This document shows, piece after piece, positions 25,297 to 33,326 of a stretch of 64,000 nucleotides of DNA. The stretch comes from Aeromicrobium sp. (lineage in GTDB: Bacteria > Actinomycetota > Actinomycetes > Propionibacteriales > Nocardioidaceae), in contig NZ_JAGLCD010000004.1 of the NCBI RefSeq assembly GCF_023146395.1, positions 320,718 to 384,717 of the forward strand. The letters run 5' to 3'. Each line of letters opens with the position of its first letter. The first letter of the stretch is position 1. Below the pieces are notes generated by a model. The model saw only the letters and a list, made by a program, of their open reading frames with translations. It made no database searches and was not told the DNA's origin. The translations under genes and the position numbers were made by a program.

Positions 25297-26040
25297 ATGA
25301 CGCGAGTGGCCGTGATCGGCGCGAACGGACGCATGGGCTCGACCTCGGTGCAGGCGATCGACGCCAGCGACGACCTGGAGGTCGTCGCGACGATCGACGT
25401 CGGCGACGACCTGGCCACGATCACCGAGGAGGCGGCCCACGTCGCCCTGGTGTTCTCGACCCCCGACGTCGCACTCGACCACGTCCGCTGGTGCGTCGAG
25501 CACGGCGTGCACGTCGTGGTCGGCACCTCGGGATTCGGCGACGAGACGATGGCCGAGGTGCAGGCGATCAGCGCTGAGCACCCGGGCATCGGGATCCTCG
25601 TGGTGCCGAACTTCTCGATCGGCGCGGTCCTGATGATGAAGTTCGCGGCCGTGGCAGCGCCGTTCTTCGAGTCGGTCGAGGTCATCGAGATGCACCACCC
25701 CGACAAGATCGACGCGCCCTCGGGCACGGCGACCCGCACCGCCGAGCTGATCGCGCAGGCGCGGGAGGCAGCCGGCTCCGACCCCCTGCCGGACGCCACC
25801 ACAACCGACCCCGACGGGGCGCGCGGCGCGACCGTCGCCGGCGTCCCGGTGCACGCCGTGCGCGCGCGGGGCTTCGTGGCCTCGCAGGAGGTCATCCTCG
25901 GCGGCACCGGCGAGATCCTGAACCTGCGCCACGACTCCTCGACGCGGGAGTCGTTCATGCCCGGAGTCCTGAGCGCGCTGCGGTGGGCGCCGTCGAACGC
26001 CGGCGTCACGGTCGGCCTCGACGCGGCCCTCGGACTCTAG
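25297..26040 (+). CDS. dapB: 4-hydroxy-tetrahydrodipicolinate reductase
   Basis: Reduces 4-hydroxy-tetrahydrodipicolinate with NAD(P)H in lysine and diaminopimelate synthesis. The 247 residues have the N-terminal Rossmann motif VAVIGANGRMGSTSVQAI, VGTSGF, and the substrate motif EMHHPDKIDAPSGTATRTAE. Its stop codon is interlocked with that of convergent azlD (CTAG at 26037-26040). dapA and dapF are elsewhere in the window. Confidence 0.96.
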   Translation: MTRVAVIGANGRMGSTSVQAIDASDDLEVVATIDVGDDLATITEEAAHVALVFSTPDVALDHVRWCVEHGVHVVVGTSGFGDETMAEVQAISAEHPGIGILVVPNFSIGAVLMMKFAAVAAPFFESVEVIEMHHPDKIDAPSGTATRTAELIAQAREAAGSDPLPDATTTDPDGARGATVAGVPVHAVRARGFVASQEVILGGTGEILNLRHDSSTRESFMPGVLSALRWAPSNAGVTVGLDAALGL

Positions 26041-26342
26041 ACCAGACGCACGAGAGCCGTGGCCGCCGCGGCGAGCACGAGCATCGGCAGGAACGGCACC
26101 CGGGCCAGCAGGCAGGCCACGGCGGTCGCCACGCCGGCCAGGCGGGCGTCCACGACGACCTCGCGGTCACCCGCGGCGGCCTGCACGGCCACCAGGGCGG
26201 CGAGCAGGCCGACCGGGATCAGGGCCGTGGCGCGCACCGTCAGGCGGTGCTCGAGCACCGCCGGCGGAACCGACAGGCCCGCGAGCTTCAGCGCGTAGCA
26301 ACCGACGCACACCGCGAGCACGCCCCACCAGAGATCAGTCAT
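26037..26342 (-). CDS. azlD: Branched-chain amino acid exporter small subunit, AzlD family
   Basis: A 101-residue protein with three to four hydrophobic segments (WWGVLAVCVGCYALKLAGL, ALIPVGLLAALVAVQAA, and the C-terminal LPMLVLAAAATALVRLV). It pairs with AzlC to export branched-chain amino acids or similar compounds. Its ATG overlaps, as ATGA, the stop of the last of three tandem 27-residue mini-ORFs, not the azlC stop as in most genomes. Confidence 0.88.
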   Translation of the reverse strand: MTDLWWGVLAVCVGCYALKLAGLSVPPAVLEHRLTVRATALIPVGLLAALVAVQAAAGDREVVVDARLAGVATAVACLLARVPFLPMLVLAAAATALVRLV

Positions 26343-26422
26343 CGCGCCACCGCCGTGGGAACGGCACAGTACGGCGGCGTCGCGATGACGTGCTCATGGT
26401 TCCCTCGCTGCCGCTCGGTCAT
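26339..26422 (-). CDS. Mini-ORF 1 of the ERQR cassette, coupled to azlD
   Basis: Encodes the 27-residue peptide ending AVAR instead of AVAQ, because the last codon is CGA. Its TGA overlaps the azlD ATG. A ribosome leaving azlC could therefore reach azlD only by four successive reinitiations, or azlD must initiate on its own. Confidence 0.5.
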   Translation of the reverse strand: MTERQRGNHEHVIATPPYCAVPTAVAR

Positions 26423-26580
26423 TGCGCCACCGCCGTGGGAAAGGCACAGTACGGTGGCGTCGCGATGACGTGCTCATGGTTCCCTCGCTGCCGCTCGGTC
26501 ATTGCGCCACCGCCGTGGGAACGGCACAGTACGGCGGCGTCGCGATGACGTGCTCATGGTTCCCTCGCTGCCGCTCGGTC
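26341..26580 (-). repeat. Three tandem 80-bp repeats between azlC and azlD
   Basis: Copies at 26341-26420, 26421-26500 and 26501-26580 are exactly 80 bp each. Copies 1 and 3 differ only at the third base (C or T). The middle copy has two further substitutions (C to A at 26462-26463 equivalent region of the stem, and C to T in the stem). Each copy contains an inverted repeat, CCGCCGT with ACGGCGG, and begins and ends so that ATGA on the minus strand is repeated at every junction. The unit length leaves an open reading frame through each copy. Confidence 0.97.
26419..26502 (-). CDS. Mini-ORF 2 of the ERQR cassette
   Basis: Encodes the same 27-residue peptide as its neighbours with one change: Phe replaces Val at position 21. 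The other base change in this copy is silent (a Pro codon). Start and stop overlap the neighbouring copies by ATGA. Confidence 0.5.
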   Translation of the reverse strand: MTERQRGNHEHVIATPPYCAFPTAVAQ

Positions 26581-26582
26581 AT
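26499..26582 (-). CDS. Mini-ORF 3 of the ERQR cassette, coupled to azlC
   Basis: Encodes 27 residues starting MTERQRGNHEHVIATPP and ending AVAQ. Its ATG overlaps the azlC stop as ATGA, and its own stop overlaps the ATG of the next copy in the same way. The peptide has no signal or membrane segment and one Cys. No function is recognised; it may be a real peptide, a translational bridge, or an accident of a repeat that keeps frame. Confidence 0.5.
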   Translation of the reverse strand: MTERQRGNHEHVIATPPYCAVPTAVAQ

Positions 26583-27280
26583 CTCCGACCACCCCAGACG
26601 AGGCCGAGGGCGACGGCCGAGAGCCCGCCGAGGATGATCGGCACCCCCGGTGCGGTGAACGGGACGAGGAGCAGGGCCAGCACGACGCCCGTGACGGCCA
26701 CGGCTCGGGGCACGGCGGAGTCCAGGCGCGGCCACAGCAGCCCCAGGAACGCGGCGGCGACGGCGCCGTCGAGGCCGATCGCCTCGGGGTCGCCGATCGC
26801 GTCCCCGGCGATCGCGCCTGCGGCGGTCGTGAGGTTCCAGATCAGGAAGATCGTGATGCCGGTCCAGTAGAAGCCCAGGCGGGCCTGGTGGGAGGTCGGG
26901 CGGGTGACGCCCATCGCGGTCGACTCGTCGATCACGAGGTGTGCGGCGGCCCACCGCCGCCACCCGCGGACCTGCAGGTGTGAGGCCATGCTGATGCCGT
27001 AGAACACGTTGCGGCCCCCGAGCAGCACCGAGGTGAGCGCGCCGGCGACGGGGGATCCCCCCGAGGCCACGACGCCGACGAAGGCGAACTGCGAGGCGCC
27101 CGTGAAGGCCAGGAGCGACAGGGCACACGTCTGCCACACGCTCAGGCCGGCCGCTGGTCCGAGGGCTCCGAACGTGACGCCGTACAGGCCCACGCCGATC
27201 CCCACGCCGAGGGCGTCCCGGATGACGGCCCGGTCGGCGTCGGGGTCGGGGTCGGCGTCGTGGTTCTGCGCGTCGGTCAT
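26579..27280 (-). CDS. azlC: Branched-chain amino acid exporter large subunit, AzlC family
   Basis: A 233-residue membrane protein. The family signature near the N-terminus is GVGLYGVTFGALGPAAGLSVWQTCALSLLAFTGASQFA, followed by GGRNVFYGISMA. About six membrane segments are expected. The ATG at 27280 overlaps the GNAT gene upstream as ATGA. The longer frame upstream lies inside that gene. Confidence 0.9.
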   Translation of the reverse strand: MTDAQNHDADPDPDADRAVIRDALGVGIGVGLYGVTFGALGPAAGLSVWQTCALSLLAFTGASQFAFVGVVASGGSPVAGALTSVLLGGRNVFYGISMASHLQVRGWRRWAAAHLVIDESTAMGVTRPTSHQARLGFYWTGITIFLIWNLTTAAGAIAGDAIGDPEAIGLDGAVAAAFLGLLWPRLDSAVPRAVAVTGVVLALLLVPFTAPGVPIILGGLSAVALGLVWGGRR

Positions 27281-27825
27281 GCCACGGCGGTGTGCAGGCG
27301 AACCTGCTTGACCCGGCGGCCGTCGGGCGCCTCGAGCTCGCGGTACGCGCCGTCGGAGGACCACCCGCCGGACGTCAGGAGCAGCCGCGCGCCGTCGTCG
27401 CCGGCCGCGACCCACGTGCGCAGGTACACGAACCGGTCGGCCGCCGTGGTGTCGACCGCCGCCTGCACCAGGCGCGTGCCGTGTCCGGCACGCCGCGCAG
27501 ACGGGAGCACCGCGAGATCGCCCATCTCGGCGTCGCGGACCGGGTCGGCGTCGGGATCGGTGCCGGGATGCACCACGACGTACCCGACCACGACGTCGTC
27601 GCTGGTGGCCACCAGGACCCGGAAGCGGGCCTCGGGGGAGTGCGTGAGGGTGCTGCGCCAGCGGCCGGCGTGCTCGTCGAGGTCACCGAAGGCGGCCCCG
27701 AGCTGGTCGAGCTCGAGCCAGTCGGCCAGCCAGGCCTCGCGCTGGAGCGCCGCGATGGTCGTGGCGTCGTCCGGCCAGGCCAGGCGAACGGCGTCCCCGG
27801 ACCCGGCGGCCGATGCCCCGCTCAC
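27277..27825 (-). CDS. GNAT-family N-acetyltransferase
   Basis: A 182-residue protein starting at GTG 27825, which overlaps the stop of the gene upstream. The acetyl-CoA motif is DLAVLPSARRAGHGTRLVQAAVD; FRVLVATSDDVVVGYVVV is the preceding strand pair. The C-terminal residues (YRELEAPDGRRVKQVRLHTAV) are usual for small actinobacterial GNATs. The substrate is unknown. Gene overlap with azlC suggests a shared transcript. Confidence 0.85.
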   Translation of the reverse strand: MSGASAAGSGDAVRLAWPDDATTIAALQREAWLADWLELDQLGAAFGDLDEHAGRWRSTLTHSPEARFRVLVATSDDVVVGYVVVHPGTDPDADPVRDAEMGDLAVLPSARRAGHGTRLVQAAVDTTAADRFVYLRTWVAAGDDGARLLLTSGGWSSDGAYRELEAPDGRRVKQVRLHTAVA

Positions 27826-28316
27826 ACGAACGAGTCGATGAGGTCCGACTCGGCACCGTTCGCGTCGAGCATCGTCGCGGTCATGGAGACGTTGCGCAGC
27901 GAGGGCCAGACCTCGAAGGCCATGACGATGAGGCCGGGGAGGCCGGCGATGGCGATGGGCCAGCCGCCCGAGTCGGTCACGAACGCCACGAGCACGGCGA
28001 GCAGAAGGGGGGCCTCGCACAGGATGAGCTTGCGGACCGTCTGGGCCGCATAGACCCCGACGGCGGCGCTGCGGTTCTCCTCGGGGTCGGTGGCCGGATC
28101 GAGCGGTGCGGCCGAGAGCCAGACACGGTCGGCCAGCAAGCCGCCGATCGCGACCGCGGCGAGCAGGCCGACCCAGACGGCCCAGTGCGGGCGATCGGCG
28201 TCGGTGCCGCCCAGCATCCAGAACAGGGCGGCGAGGAACGCGGCCGTCAGCACGATCTGCAGGAGCGCGAAGTTCCGCAGCTCCCGGGGCGTGGCGTCGT
28301 ACTCGTTCTGTGCCAT
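27822..28316 (-). CDS. Small membrane protein of unknown function
   Basis: A 164-residue protein with four hydrophobic segments, roughly at 17-38, 44-62, 92-113 and 119-137. No family is recognised with confidence. It is the first gene of the four-gene operon leading to azlD. The ATG at 28316 is chosen because an upstream GTG would overlap the thyA promoter region. It diverges from thyA. Confidence 0.65.
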   Translation of the reverse strand: MAQNEYDATPRELRNFALLQIVLTAAFLAALFWMLGGTDADRPHWAVWVGLLAAVAIGGLLADRVWLSAAPLDPATDPEENRSAAVGVYAAQTVRKLILCEAPLLLAVLVAFVTDSGGWPIAIAGLPGLIVMAFEVWPSLRNVSMTATMLDANGAESDLIDSFV

Positions 28317-28372
28317 GGCCGGATTCTCGCACAGCGCGGTCCGGCTTCCCACCGGTGCCGGGCCCGGTTCGG

Positions 28373-28378
28373 TAGCCT
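28373..28378 (+). promoter_or_regulatory. -10 hexamer TAGCCT for leaderless thyA mRNA
   Basis: Ends 6 nt before the thyA ATG. No clear -35. Confidence 0.5.
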
Positions 28379-28384
28379 CGGGGC

Positions 28385-29194
28385 ATGCAGCAGTACCTCG
28401 ATCTCGTGCAGCGGATCCTCGACGACGGCATCGAGAAGGGTGACCGCACGGGCACCGGGACGCGGAGCGTGTTCGGCCACCAGATGCGCTTCGACCTGCA
28501 GGAGGGCTTCCCGCTCGTCACGACCAAGAAGATCCACCTCAAGTCGGTCGTGGGCGAGCTGCTCTGGTTCGTCTCCGGTGAGACCAACGTGCGCTGGCTG
28601 CAGGAGAACGGCATCTCGATCTGGGACGAGTGGGCCGACGCCGACGGTGAGCTCGGCCCCGTCTACGGGCACCAGTGGAGGTCCTGGCCGACCCCGTCGG
28701 GCGACACGATCGACCAGCTGCGCGACGTGGTCGAGGCCCTCAAGACCGACCCGAACTCGCGCCGGCACATCGTCAGCGCCTGGAACGTCGCCGACCTCGA
28801 CGCGATGGCCCTCGCGCCGTGCCACGCGTTCTTCCAGTTCTACGTCGCCCCGCAGGCAGGCGGCCCGGGTCGCCTGAGCTGCCAGCTCTACCAGCGATCG
28901 GCCGACGTCTTCCTCGGCGTCCCGTTCAACATCGCCTCCTACGCGCTGCTGACGCACATGGTCGCGCAGGTCGCGGGTCTCGAGGTGGGCGACTTCGTCC
29001 ACACGCTCGGGGACGCCCACCTCTACCTGAACCATCTCGACCAGGCGCGTCTGCAGCTGATCCGGGAGCCCAGGCCGCTTCCGGAGCTGTGGCTCGACCC
29101 GTCGGTCACCGACATCGACGGATTCGGCTTCGACGCGATCAAGGTCACCGGCTACGACCCGCACCCGCTGATCAAGGCCCCGATCGCCATATGA
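28385..29194 (+). CDS. thyA: Thymidylate synthase, ThyA type
   Basis: Methylates dUMP to dTMP using methylene-tetrahydrofolate. The 269 residues include the catalytic Cys in [12 protein letters not shown], the nucleotide-binding RRHIVSAWN and [26 protein letters not shown]. It overlaps dfrA by ATGA, so the enzyme that makes dihydrofolate and the one that recycles it are co-translated. No flavin-dependent thyX lies between here and dapA. Confidence 0.97.
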
Positions 29195-29664
29195 CGCTCA
29201 CCCTCGTGGTGGCGATGGGCTCGAACCGCGTCATCGGCGCCGGTGGCACGCTGCCGTGGCACCTGCCCGAGGACCTCGCGCACTTCAAGCGGGTGACGCT
29301 CGGGCACCCCATGATCATGGGACGCACGACGTTCGAGTCGATCGGGCGCCCACTGCCGGGCCGGACGACGATCGTCGTGACCCGCCAGCAGGACTGGTCG
29401 GCCGAGGGCGTGGAAGTGGCGCACTCGCTCGACGACGCGATCGCGCTCGCGTCCGCGATGGGCGAGGAGCCGATGCTCGTCGGCGGTGCCCAGGTCTACG
29501 CCGAGGCGCTCGAGCGCGACCTGGTCGACACGATGATCGTGACCCGCGTGCGCCAGGCGCCCGAGGGTGATGCGTGGTTCCCCGAGATCGACTGGGAGGC
29601 GTGGGTCGAGGTGGCCCAGGAGCCCCACGCCGAGTTCGACGTCGTCACCTACCAGCGCGCCTGA
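29191..29664 (+). CDS. dfrA: Dihydrofolate reductase
   Basis: Reduces dihydrofolate to tetrahydrofolate with NADPH. The 157 residues have [19 protein letters not shown] (substrate-binding Trp and acidic residue), [27 protein letters not shown], and the NADPH motif [13 protein letters not shown]. The start at 29191 is fixed by overlap with thyA. Confidence 0.96.
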
Positions 29665-29684
29665 ATCTGCCGGTTGCTCCGTCG

Positions 29685-29729
29685 CGGTCCTGGCTACGCC
29701 AGCTCTGCCCTCGGTCCTGGCTACGCCAG
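29685..29729 (+). terminator. Two hairpin repeats between convergent dfrA and thioesterase genes
   Basis: The 18-bp sequence CGGTCCTGGCTACGCCAG occurs at 29685-29702 and 29712-29729 (period 27). Each copy folds as CTGGC-tac-GCCAG; the second extends to TCCTGGC/GCCAGGA. The second copy spans the stop codon of the minus-strand gene. A bidirectional terminator is likely. Confidence 0.65.
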
Positions 29730-30512
29730 GAGTGCGATCTGGCGGCTCGTCGCCACGATCCGACCCTCCGGGTCCCACAGACGGACGTCCTCGTCGTGGA
29801 ACCCGTCGACGGTGCGGTGGGTGACGACCTCCATCTGGACCCACTCGGCCGTGAAACGGCGCCAGAAGTGCACCGTCAGCTGGATCGTCGAGGAGGCCAG
29901 CTCGCCGAGATCGGCGAGCACCGGCGGGTAGGCGTCGACGATCGCACCGGCCGCGAAGGCATCGACGGGCCGGCCGTCGACCGGCCGGATCCAGAAGTGC
30001 GCCGTCGGGTCGCCGGACGGTGCGCCGGCGAGCCAGCCCGGCACCGTGGCGTGCCGCGTCGTGTAGCGACGCGCGACGGCCGGCACCAGCTCGGGCGGGA
30101 ACCCCGCCATCGGGTCGACGCCGTCCTCGGGCGCCGGCAAGGCGGGCGGGACCTCGTCCAGGTGCTGCTTCGCACCGGCCAGGTCGGCGTCGTGCAGGCT
30201 GACGACGCCGTGGGTGATCGGCGTGCCGCCCTGGCTCAGCACGACCGTGAACGTCGAGACCCGGCGGCCCTCCCGCACCGGCGTCACGGTCACGACGGCA
30301 GGACCGGGCGTGGTCGGCTTGAGGTAGGTCACCGCGACCGAGAGGGGGTCGGGTTTGTCGGACTCCTCGAGCGCCGCGCGCACGAGGATCGCCAGGAGGT
30401 AGCCGCCATTGGCCGTACCAGCGGGTGTGTTCCACTCGGCCGTCAGCTCGACCGAGCGGACGCCCGGTGAGACGGGGGTGGACCAGGTGGCGGCATCGAG
30501 CTCGTAGGTCAT
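29721..30512 (-). CDS. Acyl-CoA thioesterase, TesB-like double hotdog
   Basis: A 263-residue protein. The N-terminal hotdog domain has WNTPAGTANGGYLLAILVRAALEE and SVAVTYLKPTTPGPAVVTVTPVREGRRVSTFTVVLSQ. The C-terminal half has AHFWIRPVDGRPVD and LTVHFWRRFTAEWVQMEV. This is the pattern of actinobacterial thioesterase-family proteins that hydrolyse acyl-CoA. The ATG at 30512 starts a usual N-terminus; the frame is open further upstream without a ribosome site. Confidence 0.82.
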   Translation of the reverse strand: MTYELDAATWSTPVSPGVRSVELTAEWNTPAGTANGGYLLAILVRAALEESDKPDPLSVAVTYLKPTTPGPAVVTVTPVREGRRVSTFTVVLSQGGTPITHGVVSLHDADLAGAKQHLDEVPPALPAPEDGVDPMAGFPPELVPAVARRYTTRHATVPGWLAGAPSGDPTAHFWIRPVDGRPVDAFAAGAIVDAYPPVLADLGELASSTIQLTVHFWRRFTAEWVQMEVVTHRTVDGFHDEDVRLWDPEGRIVATSRQIALLA

Positions 30513-30569
30513 GACGCCATCCTGCCGGGCCGAGGGCGTGCGGGCCGCAGGGCCACCGACGTGCCGCGA

Positions 30570-30575
30570 TAACCT
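30570..30575 (+). promoter_or_regulatory. -10 hexamer TAACCT for the dapA leader ORF
   Basis: Ends 6 nt before the ATG of the SERQR mini-ORF at 30582, so that mini-ORF would be the first thing on a leaderless dapA transcript. Confidence 0.5.
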
Positions 30576-30581
30576 CGCACC

Positions 30582-30665
30582 ATGAGCGAGCGCCAGCGAG
30601 TGGACACGGGCACGTGGCATGTCGTCACCTGCGAAGGTGGTCGTGTGGGGCAGGTGACGTCATGA
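30582..30665 (+). CDS. SERQR mini-ORF upstream of dapA
   Basis: Encodes 27 residues starting MSERQRVDTGTWHVV and ending GQVTS. It is preceded by a -10 at leaderless spacing. Its TGA overlaps the dapA ATG as ATGA. The first six codons match the azlC-azlD cassettes in sense (M-S/T-E-R-Q-R), but the rest differs. The second half of the ORF carries the hairpins described for the dapA start. Confidence 0.5.
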   Translation: MSERQRVDTGTWHVVTCEGGRVGQVTS

Positions 30666-30672
30666 CGTCACC
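30624..30672 (+). promoter_or_regulatory. Alternative hairpins covering the dapA start
   Basis: Stem A: GTCACCTGC (30624-30632) pairs with GCAGGTGAC (30650-30658), loop 17 nt. Stem B: a 20-bp perfect palindrome, 30653-30672, centred on the dapA ATG. The two share bases 30653-30658 and exclude each other. The geometry resembles a translation-controlled attenuator, or the palindrome may be a protein-binding site. Confidence 0.45.
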
Positions 30673-31567
30673 GCTCGCCACGGCCGGCGCGCCCTTCGGG
30701 CGCGTGCTCACCGCGATGGTCACCCCGTTCACCGCCGACGGTGCCCTGGACCTCGAGAGCGCGCAAAAGCTCGCGTCACACCTCGTCGACGCGGGCAACG
30801 ACGGGCTCGTCGTCTCCGGCACGACGGGGGAGTCGCCCACCACGACGGGCGAGGAGGACGGTCGCCTGCTGGCGGCGGTGCTCGAAGCCGTCGGCGACCG
30901 CGCCACGGTCGTGGCAGGGGTCGGCACCAACGACACGCGCCACTCGGTCGAGCTCGCGGAGTCCGCGGCACGCATCGGGGCGCACGGCCTCCTGCTCGTC
31001 ACGCCGTACTACTCCCGACCCCCGCAGGCCGGCATCATCGGTCACGTCGACGCGGTGGCGAAGGCGGCCGGCGACGTCCCGATCATGCTCTACGACATCC
31101 CCGGGCGCACCGGCACCGAGCTCACGCGCGAGACGTACCTCGCGATGAACGACCGGCCCACCGTGACCGCGATGAAGGACGCCGTCGGCGACCTCCACCG
31201 CGGAGCCTGGATCATGGAGAACACCGACCTCGCCCTCTACTCCGGCGACGACGTCCTCAACCTCGGCTGGCTCGCCGTCGGGGCGGCCGGTGTCGTCAGC
31301 GTCGTGGGGCATGTGGCAGGACCGCAGTACCAGGCCATGGTCGAGGCGGTCGACGCCGGTGACCTGGCCACCGCCCGACGCATCGACCGCGACCTCATCG
31401 GTCTTGTCGCCGCGATCATGGGCCAGACCCAGGGCGCCATCGCCGCCAAGGTCGCCGCCCACGAGCTGGGCCTCATCAGTTCATCCCGGGTGCGCCTGCC
31501 CCTGTCGCAGGCCACCGACGAGCAGGTCGCGATCATCCGCGCCGCCATCCAGAAAGTCACTGCATGA
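30662..31567 (+). CDS. dapA: 4-hydroxy-tetrahydrodipicolinate synthase
   Basis: Condenses pyruvate and aspartate semialdehyde, the entry step of lysine and diaminopimelate synthesis. The 301 residues have VSGTTGESPTTT (the Thr pair of the catalytic triad), TPYYSRPPQAGI (catalytic Tyr), MLYDIPGRTG, and the Schiff-base Lys in TVTAMKDAVGD. The ATG at 30662 lies in the ATGA overlap with the preceding mini-ORF; the next mini-ORF overlaps its stop. Confidence 0.96.
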   Translation: MTSPLATAGAPFGRVLTAMVTPFTADGALDLESAQKLASHLVDAGNDGLVVSGTTGESPTTTGEEDGRLLAAVLEAVGDRATVVAGVGTNDTRHSVELAESAARIGAHGLLLVTPYYSRPPQAGIIGHVDAVAKAAGDVPIMLYDIPGRTGTELTRETYLAMNDRPTVTAMKDAVGDLHRGAWIMENTDLALYSGDDVLNLGWLAVGAAGVVSVVGHVAGPQYQAMVEAVDAGDLATARRIDRDLIGLVAAIMGQTQGAIAAKVAAHELGLISSSRVRLPLSQATDEQVAIIRAAIQKVTA

Positions 31568-31646
31568 GCGAGCGCCAGCGAGCGACAAACGAAGGAGATC
31601 TCATGGCGAATCCGCCTACCATCACGTTTTTGAAGGCGGTTTCGGC

Positions 31647-31650
<4 letters not shown>
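31564..31650 (+). CDS. SERQR mini-ORF bridging dapA and rnj
   Basis: Encodes 28 residues starting MSERQRATNEGDLMANPP and ending AVSA. ATGA overlaps join it to dapA in front and to rnj behind. A ribosome site GAAGGAG (31591-31597) lies inside it, 5 nt before an in-frame ATG at 31603, which would give a 15-residue product. Residues 9-18 align with the azlC-azlD peptides (N-x-E-x-x-h-A-x-P-P), so this copy is related beyond the first six codons. Confidence 0.5.

Positions 31651-33326
<1,676 letters not shown>

Follow-up and report, generated by a model that had tools for sequence, protein, structure and literature searches.

A MIRU-like interspersed element at start codons in Aeromicrobium, with a probable role as a translational relay

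Element copies in the window and beyond

The window analysed here is a 64,000-nt stretch of an Aeromicrobium genome (G000; assembly GCF_023146395.1, 2.82 Mb, 83% complete; contig NZ_JAGLCD010000004.1, positions 320,718 to 384,717), in which short open reading frames (ORFs) occupy gene junctions. A preliminary description had listed five such mini-ORFs of 27-28 codons beginning M(S/T)ERQR, and all five are present as described; they are copies of an interspersed element with a unit of 80, 83 or 86 bp. Three lie on the minus strand between azlC (26579..27280; PF03591, 2e-32) and azlD (26037..26342; PF05437, 7e-06). The first (26499..26582; 27 codons, MTERQRGNHEHVIATPPYCAVPTAVAQ; 85.1 bits with the covariance model R1 defined below) has its ATGA in common with the azlC stop and with the second (26419..26502; 27 codons; an R1 match), which follows in tandem at an 80-bp period, and the third (26339..26422; 27 codons; 88.6 bits) terminates in the ATGA at which azlD starts. 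On the plus strand, one copy (30582..30665; 27 codons; an R1 match) precedes dapA (30662..31567; PF00701, 8e-75), and another (31564..31650; 28 codons; also an R1 match) connects dapA to rnj, encoding RNase J (31647..33326; PF22505 and PF17770), which starts in its terminal ATGA. The TGA of each mini-ORF overlaps the following ATG as ATGA (5/5), and four of the five also begin in such an overlap; the exception is the dapA copy, whose ATG follows a -10-like TAACCT (30570..30575, plus strand) by six bases, the leaderless spacing noted earlier.

The initial observation was correct and turned out to be part of a larger picture, which includes copies outside the window, filled and empty sites in relatives and a covarying hairpin. 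The search pattern ATGANCGAGCGN{0,2}AGCGAG was present in 92 of 245 genomes of the family, with a maximum of 65 copies in one, against 1 of 245 for the reversed pattern used as a control, and chance is therefore not the source of the repeats; the same pattern was present in 70 of 394 genomes of the class (control, 4/394). The core 14-mer CGAGCGSCAGCGAG occurs 11 times in this genome (reversed pattern, once), six of the occurrences belonging to the element and five lying in different sequence. Sixty-six distinct copies of 27 codons (alignment A2) were used to build a covariance model, R1, which matched 44 of 49 genomes of the genus, with 1-78 copies where matched and 0-78 overall, and gave 11 matches in this genome, the weakest with an E-value of 6e-4. 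Strong R1 matches in four genomes were mostly 84 or 87 nt long with both ATGA counted.

Start codons, empty sites and reading frame

With the 5' motif as the sole criterion, 130 distinct copies were collected at 106 loci of the same genus (drawn from three loci of this genome, 30 from the family pattern search and 80 stretches picked from nine genomes among the places listed by that search, with repeats dropped). A mini-ORF of 9-33 codons ends in ATGA on the next start in 116 of the 130; the remainder comprise 11 copies running into a longer ORF, one GTGA end, one CTGA end and one copy at a contig end, and two further ATGA ends in the run-on class bring the ends of this type to 118. In the control, 12 occurrences of the motif in 11 viral contigs, one ended in ATGA and one in GTGA, and the R1 scores of these contigs were weak (21-29 bits) and mostly due to the shared 5' core. 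Furthermore, 98% of 98 ATGA element ends (ends followed by another unit excluded) open an ORF of at least 90 aa, compared with 34% of the remaining 1632 ATGA sites in these loci, a background that still includes real gene starts. Upstream, the frame that closes at the first TGA stays open over at least 60 codons in 107 of the 130 copies; because the DNA is GC-rich this is weak evidence, and the downstream test is the stronger one. Pfam domains were found in 17 of 19 scanned downstream ORFs (20 picked, minus L082 and the separately scanned L002, plus L244 from another genus), many of them from housekeeping operons and including NuoK, a NuoM-like protein, QcrA, HemA (two genomes), ornithine/aspartate carbamoyltransferase (two genomes), dUTPase and RNase J.

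Orthologous junctions with and without the element were compared. The dapA-rnj junction is empty in G097, a relative whose DapA is 96% identical to that of this genome, and reads CACTGC-ATGA-GCCATCT; the filled site here reads CACTGC-ATGA-element-ATGA-GCCATCT (both read from raw flanks; MAFFT misplaced the left flank), a pair that shows clean insertion at ATGA. Two other relatives, G091 and G118, have copies of their own upstream of rnj; G115 lacks one at this site. G097 also has the dapA copy, which is absent in G080, where the ATG of dapA stands six bases after TAACCT; since TAACCT or TAGCCT is similarly spaced from the native dapA ATG in element-free relatives (30 dapA loci, the present one included), dapA is probably leaderless. 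The azlC-azlD junction is tight and free of the element in all eight relatives inspected, of 40 with a match. Tandem arrays were found at 14 of the 106 loci, and one array has three units in G019 and four in its close relative G124, the next gene being identical at 417 of 420 residues. The precise empty site, the element-free junctions, the 0-78 copies per genome and the difference in tandem number together bear out a mobile repeat, one of three readings offered in the preliminary description.

Different species carry elements at the same genes, namely hemA (L027/L086), carbamoyltransferase (L014/L090) and rnj (G000/G091/G118), which suggests hot spots or repeated insertion. At L002 (1516-1638, minus strand), a short ORF that precedes the C12 copy has GGCGGTGGCGTCATGA at its end; this resembles the element tail and may be left over from a second tandem unit.

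Conservation of the frame was assessed with 63 R1 matches in four genomes, of which 58 were strong (E-value <=1.7e-7) and five weaker. The length is divisible by three in 57 of the 58 strong matches, and all 30 matches read together with their loci end in ATGA, 29 beginning in ATGA and one in GTGA. The core is one base short in 38 of the 130 copies, and 33 of these still end in ATGA (one a run-on ORF); those included in A2, an alignment pre-selected for 27 codons, bear a compensating extra base elsewhere. It had been proposed that the coupling idea would fail if copies lay at random relative to start codons or if frameshifts were as common as intact frames, and neither was observed.

The same data bear on the second of the three readings, that of a functional small-peptide family in which the peptide MSERQR..PPYRALPTEVTA itself acts. 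Among 101 distinct full-length copies this peptide remains recognisable, and it shows a slight synonymous excess (22 synonymous and 38 non-synonymous changes against 16.4 and 43.6 expected; 17 pairs), but a one-base difference shifts the frame in which the conserved DNA core is read, giving QR or SER, the 13-nt core (SER) being found in 38 of 130 copies and the other 92 being mostly QR. Moreover, the middle of the peptide differs in other families, and between G000 and G097 the dapA copy has seven base differences spread over six codons, each of which then specifies another residue, in an unbroken frame. Given the two-frame core, the weakness of the synonymous excess and these residue changes, a peptide function is not favoured and we consider it very improbable; what is conserved is the frame, together with the Shine-Dalgarno (SD) sequence and hairpin described below, and the peptide is conserved weakly.

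Solo 5' modules that have no 3' hairpin and stand in frame with a gene occur at L012, L061, L082, L095, L098, L109 and L116, and may add an MSER(Q/S/E)-type N-terminal extension to that gene.

Two hairpins and the Shine-Dalgarno sequence

Each of the five copies in the window ends in a 3' hairpin. On the minus strand, alignment A2 and its pair counts place it at 26499..26548, with an SD-like GGCGGTGG and the next ATG inside, at 26419..26468, and at 26339..26388, where it contains the azlD start codon; on the plus strand it lies at 30616..30665 in the dapA copy (ATGTCGTCACCTGC / GCAGGTGACGTCAT) and at 31601..31650 in the rnj copy (TCATGgCGAAtCCGCCT / AGGCGGtTTCGgCATGA). The stem has 18 pairs (TCATGCCGNCGCCNCCGT / ACGGNGGTGNCGGCATGA) around a 14-nt loop, and the SD and the next ATG lie within the hairpin. 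In A2, which was aligned by MAFFT without structure input, 87.0% of the stem cells in the 66 rows are paired, against 74.1% after shuffling and 30-55% when slid by 1-3 columns, and 131 cells carry double changes against 35.2 in shuffled alignments; 0 of 500 shuffles reached either value. Double changes were found at 13 of the 18 pairs (9.9 shuffled; reached by 3 of 500 shuffles), and RNAalifold recovered 12 of the 18 pairs unprompted, missing four TCAT-ATGA pairs and two others.

An SD, supplied by the 3' end of the element, lies about 7 nt upstream of the displaced gene's ATG. Over 101 distinct copies, its mean duplex energy was -8.8 kcal/mol at the element end and -7.9 kcal/mol at the native left site, compared with -3.5 and -3.6 kcal/mol for mid-element and shuffled controls, respectively. 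The mean predicted pairing probability was 0.87 for the SD and 0.82 for the AUG, consistent with both being buried in the stem.

The 5' core forms a second hairpin with the consensus GCGAGC-GNA/GNNA-GCGAGC and tandem G.A pairs; its closing pair covaries (17 double changes against 4.2), and its other three pairs are invariant. This hairpin suggests recognition as folded single-stranded DNA. A core GCGAGC-GCCA-GCGAGC also occurs in other hairpin-like repeats with complementary arms, at L003 and L010 (about position 1501, minus strand; CTCGGTGCGAGCGCCAGCGAGCACCGAG at L010, arms GGTCGAGTAC and GTACCGAGACC at L003), and a second repeat family thus seems to share the hairpin core.

The hairpins can also be viewed as serving mobilisation and nothing else, through recognition of single-stranded DNA by whatever moves a purely selfish repeat, with no gene regulated; frame, SD and start-codon position would then reflect survival of the least harmful insertions. 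Tandem G.A pairs with GNA or GNNA loops are unusually stable in DNA, and the 5' hairpin is of this type. A melting temperature of 88.5 C is given for CGCGAAGCG in a passage of PMC10527192. The G..A loop is only suggestive, because any copy found with the search pattern must have G..A at this place. With DNA parameters the folding excess (z<-2 in 62 of 66) equals or surpasses that with RNA parameters (52 of 66), copy numbers of 0-78 per genome would suit a selfish repeat, and any function is read from sequence. A plain DNA hairpin, however, need neither bear an SD 7 nt from its end nor bury an ATG, the SD of the element is as strong in energy as native SDs, and the in-frame length is kept in 57 of the 58 strong R1 matches; we therefore regard a purely selfish repeat as unlikely, although it deserves to be kept in mind.

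A mini-ORF followed by a hairpin that sequesters the ribosome-binding site (RBS) is likewise the layout of a translational attenuator, and the element might be a leader-peptide attenuator or riboswitch-like device whose hairpin responds to ribosome stalling at particular codons or to a ligand. The downstream genes are unrelated, there is no conserved codon run, and a scan of window positions 26000-32000 gave no Rfam family at gathering score (two matches, both below it), all of which makes such a device a most improbable explanation.

Kinship, proposed mechanism and its weighing

Related elements were found in other families. Among 60 distant copies (f1 outside the genus, f5, f14, f18 and single matches elsewhere), 37 end in ATGA and 11 in GTGA; their middle is divergent, and the 5' core is common to them by construction of the search. 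For 38 distinct copies that span 15-40 codons and finish in ATGA or GTGA, the best stem that closes on this terminus had a mean score of 8.7 against 4.5 for shuffled sequences and scored at least 8 in 20; TCAT stands opposite ATGA in 15 of the 38, and the GTGA-ended L283 and L284 have CAC opposite GTG. Single motif matches in further families look like chance, as of 14 loci (L224-L237) just L233 and L234, both f5, end in ATGA. Elements of this build thus occur in the labelled families f1, f5, f14 and f18, at most one of which could be that of Mycobacterium, and are not confined to that genus.

The closest known system is the mycobacterial interspersed repetitive unit (MIRU; Supply et al. 1997), considered here through passages of PMC12548453, PMC4128351, PMC2453075, PMC4213456 and PMC2734929. 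In these passages, MIRUs are described as apparently mobile, inserted at start codons and carrying an ORF coupled at -4 (PMC12548453), as units of 77 and 53 bp (PMC2453075) and, for a 77-nt class I MIRU, as the whole 5' untranslated region of M. bovis Mb3239c, whose M. marinum orthologue is leaderless (PMC4128351). With MIRUs so described, the present element has in common short units both dispersed and in tandem, variable copy number, insertion at start codons and a mini-ORF with -4 coupling geometry; the MIRU lengths of 77 and 53 bp likewise fit 3n-1, and the Mb3239c case parallels the leaderless start proposed for dapA. The unit here, within 40-100 bp, lies at many dispersed loci and in tandem arrays of varying copy number. 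It differs in taxon, being found in at least four labelled families with units of 80, 83 or 86 bp, and a hairpin over SD and AUG is not described in the MIRU passages of the cited papers. Neither a MIRU-like element outside mycobacteria nor such a hairpin appeared among the literature matches listed, in which the sole paper with the term 'MIRU-like', PMC9189399 as it appears there, concerns a cyanobacterium. A MIRU04 primer used as query returned 12 chance records, none from Mycobacterium. As all tested features except the taxon fit the published description, the element is said to work like a MIRU and its membership is left open.

Other repeat classes are less similar. Repetitive extragenic palindromic (REP) sequences and bacterial interspersed mosaic elements (BIMEs), which are mobilised by RAYT (Y1) transposases, combine a tetranucleotide with an adjacent imperfect hairpin in many dispersed copies, as does the present element, which differs in having ATGA at start codons rather than a GTAG hairpin foot, in lying inside operons with the frame kept and in the absence of a Y1_Tnp match from 49 genomes of the genus. 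Miniature inverted-repeat transposable elements (MITEs) are small, non-autonomous and dispersed; the present element shares these traits but has no terminal inverted repeats across it (A2, by eye), just ATGA repeated at its ends. Termination-reinitiation coupling at ATGA, with the -4 stop/start geometry, is described in PMC6728339 and PMC12548453; the geometry is the same here, and the coupling unit would be mobile and would bring an SD and a hairpin of its own.

We consider the element to be, probably, a MIRU-like non-autonomous mobile element that doubles as a translational relay. It inserts in one orientation at a start-codon ATGA and leaves ATGA at both ends, which with a length of 3n-1 places a mini-ORF between the displaced gene and its upstream source of ribosomes, be this a preceding gene, a further unit or a leaderless promoter. 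Initiation at the native site would then serve the mini-ORF, and the 3' end of the element provides the SD for the displaced gene, enclosed together with the ATG in a hairpin of up to 18 bp. A ribosome passing along the mini-ORF would melt the hairpin and stop at ATGA, where it or another ribosome would initiate the next gene. At the level of sequence, precise insertion, position at gene starts, frame, SD, covarying hairpins and tandem expansion are evident; translation of the mini-ORF, coupling and near-neutral insertion are what these features point to. Of the three original readings, the coupling anatomy (116/130 copies against 1/12 viral occurrences; 57/58 matches keeping frame) and the mobile repeat thus hold together, coupling itself being a presumed consequence of that anatomy, and the peptide family fares worst.

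Several observations weigh against this proposal. Two of the 18 stem pairs are poor, being unpaired in 37 and 23 of the 66 rows, G-A/A-G mismatches in the stem are not depleted (71 against 74.7 expected), and the canonical GGAG/GAGG/AGGA is found in 56 of 106 full-length copies, compared with 66 of 106 at the native left site. The mean folding z was -3.5 for RNA and -4.3 for DNA, and neither covariation nor energies separate the two roles; the asymmetry between G-U (83 seen, 103 expected) and A-C (23 seen, 45 expected) is only suggestive. Of the 130 copies, 11 continue in frame into a longer ORF (with L038 a possible chance match), and one of 58 strong and three of five weaker R1 matches are off frame. 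At azlC-azlD, the left junction needed a further small change, as relatives have an 8-base overlap there. Likewise, Y1 transposase (PF01797) gave no match in the 49 genomes of the genus (5 of 14 controls were positive), the RVT_1 reverse transcriptase in five of 49 and, among the eight copy-rich genomes, in G138 alone, and an IS110-type transposase is missing from the copy-rich G151, G083, G074 and G109 and from all six copy-poor genomes.

On these counts, mobilisation by Y1/RAYT and by a reverse transcriptase were both rejected. The IS110-type transposase was present in 4 of 14 chosen genomes (G106, G138, G118 and G115, all copy-rich), and does not seem to be required for the element. Carriage by phage was rejected since just one of the 12 viral occurrences ends in ATGA, and carriage by plasmid since the rnj copy had no plasmid match.

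Extending the relay beyond the genus, we tentatively suggest a class-wide family of mobile translational relays, moved through the same hairpins by some enzyme, with MIRUs as its mycobacterial branch; this is possible rather than probable. Such an element would have evolved to insert at the starts of operon genes and leave the operon working, by bringing a full relay with it, made up of start, short frame, stop, SD and hairpin. The hairpin would there lock the next RBS until a ribosome arrives, and translation of the downstream gene would depend strictly on that of the upstream one. MIRUs serve worldwide as typing markers, and their movement and translational effect are standing questions; a family of MIRU build elsewhere, whose genomes contain as many as 78 copies and offer clean empty sites and a covarying hairpin at the RBS, makes both testable with harmless species. 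If the relay works as proposed, it would represent a natural mobile element that spares host operons, and a compact part for polycistronic expression.

Elsewhere in the window, a direct repeat of GGTCCTGGCTACGCCAG (29686-29702 and 29713-29729, together spanning 29686-29729) lies between convergent genes; each copy is able to form a small hairpin and is possibly a terminator.

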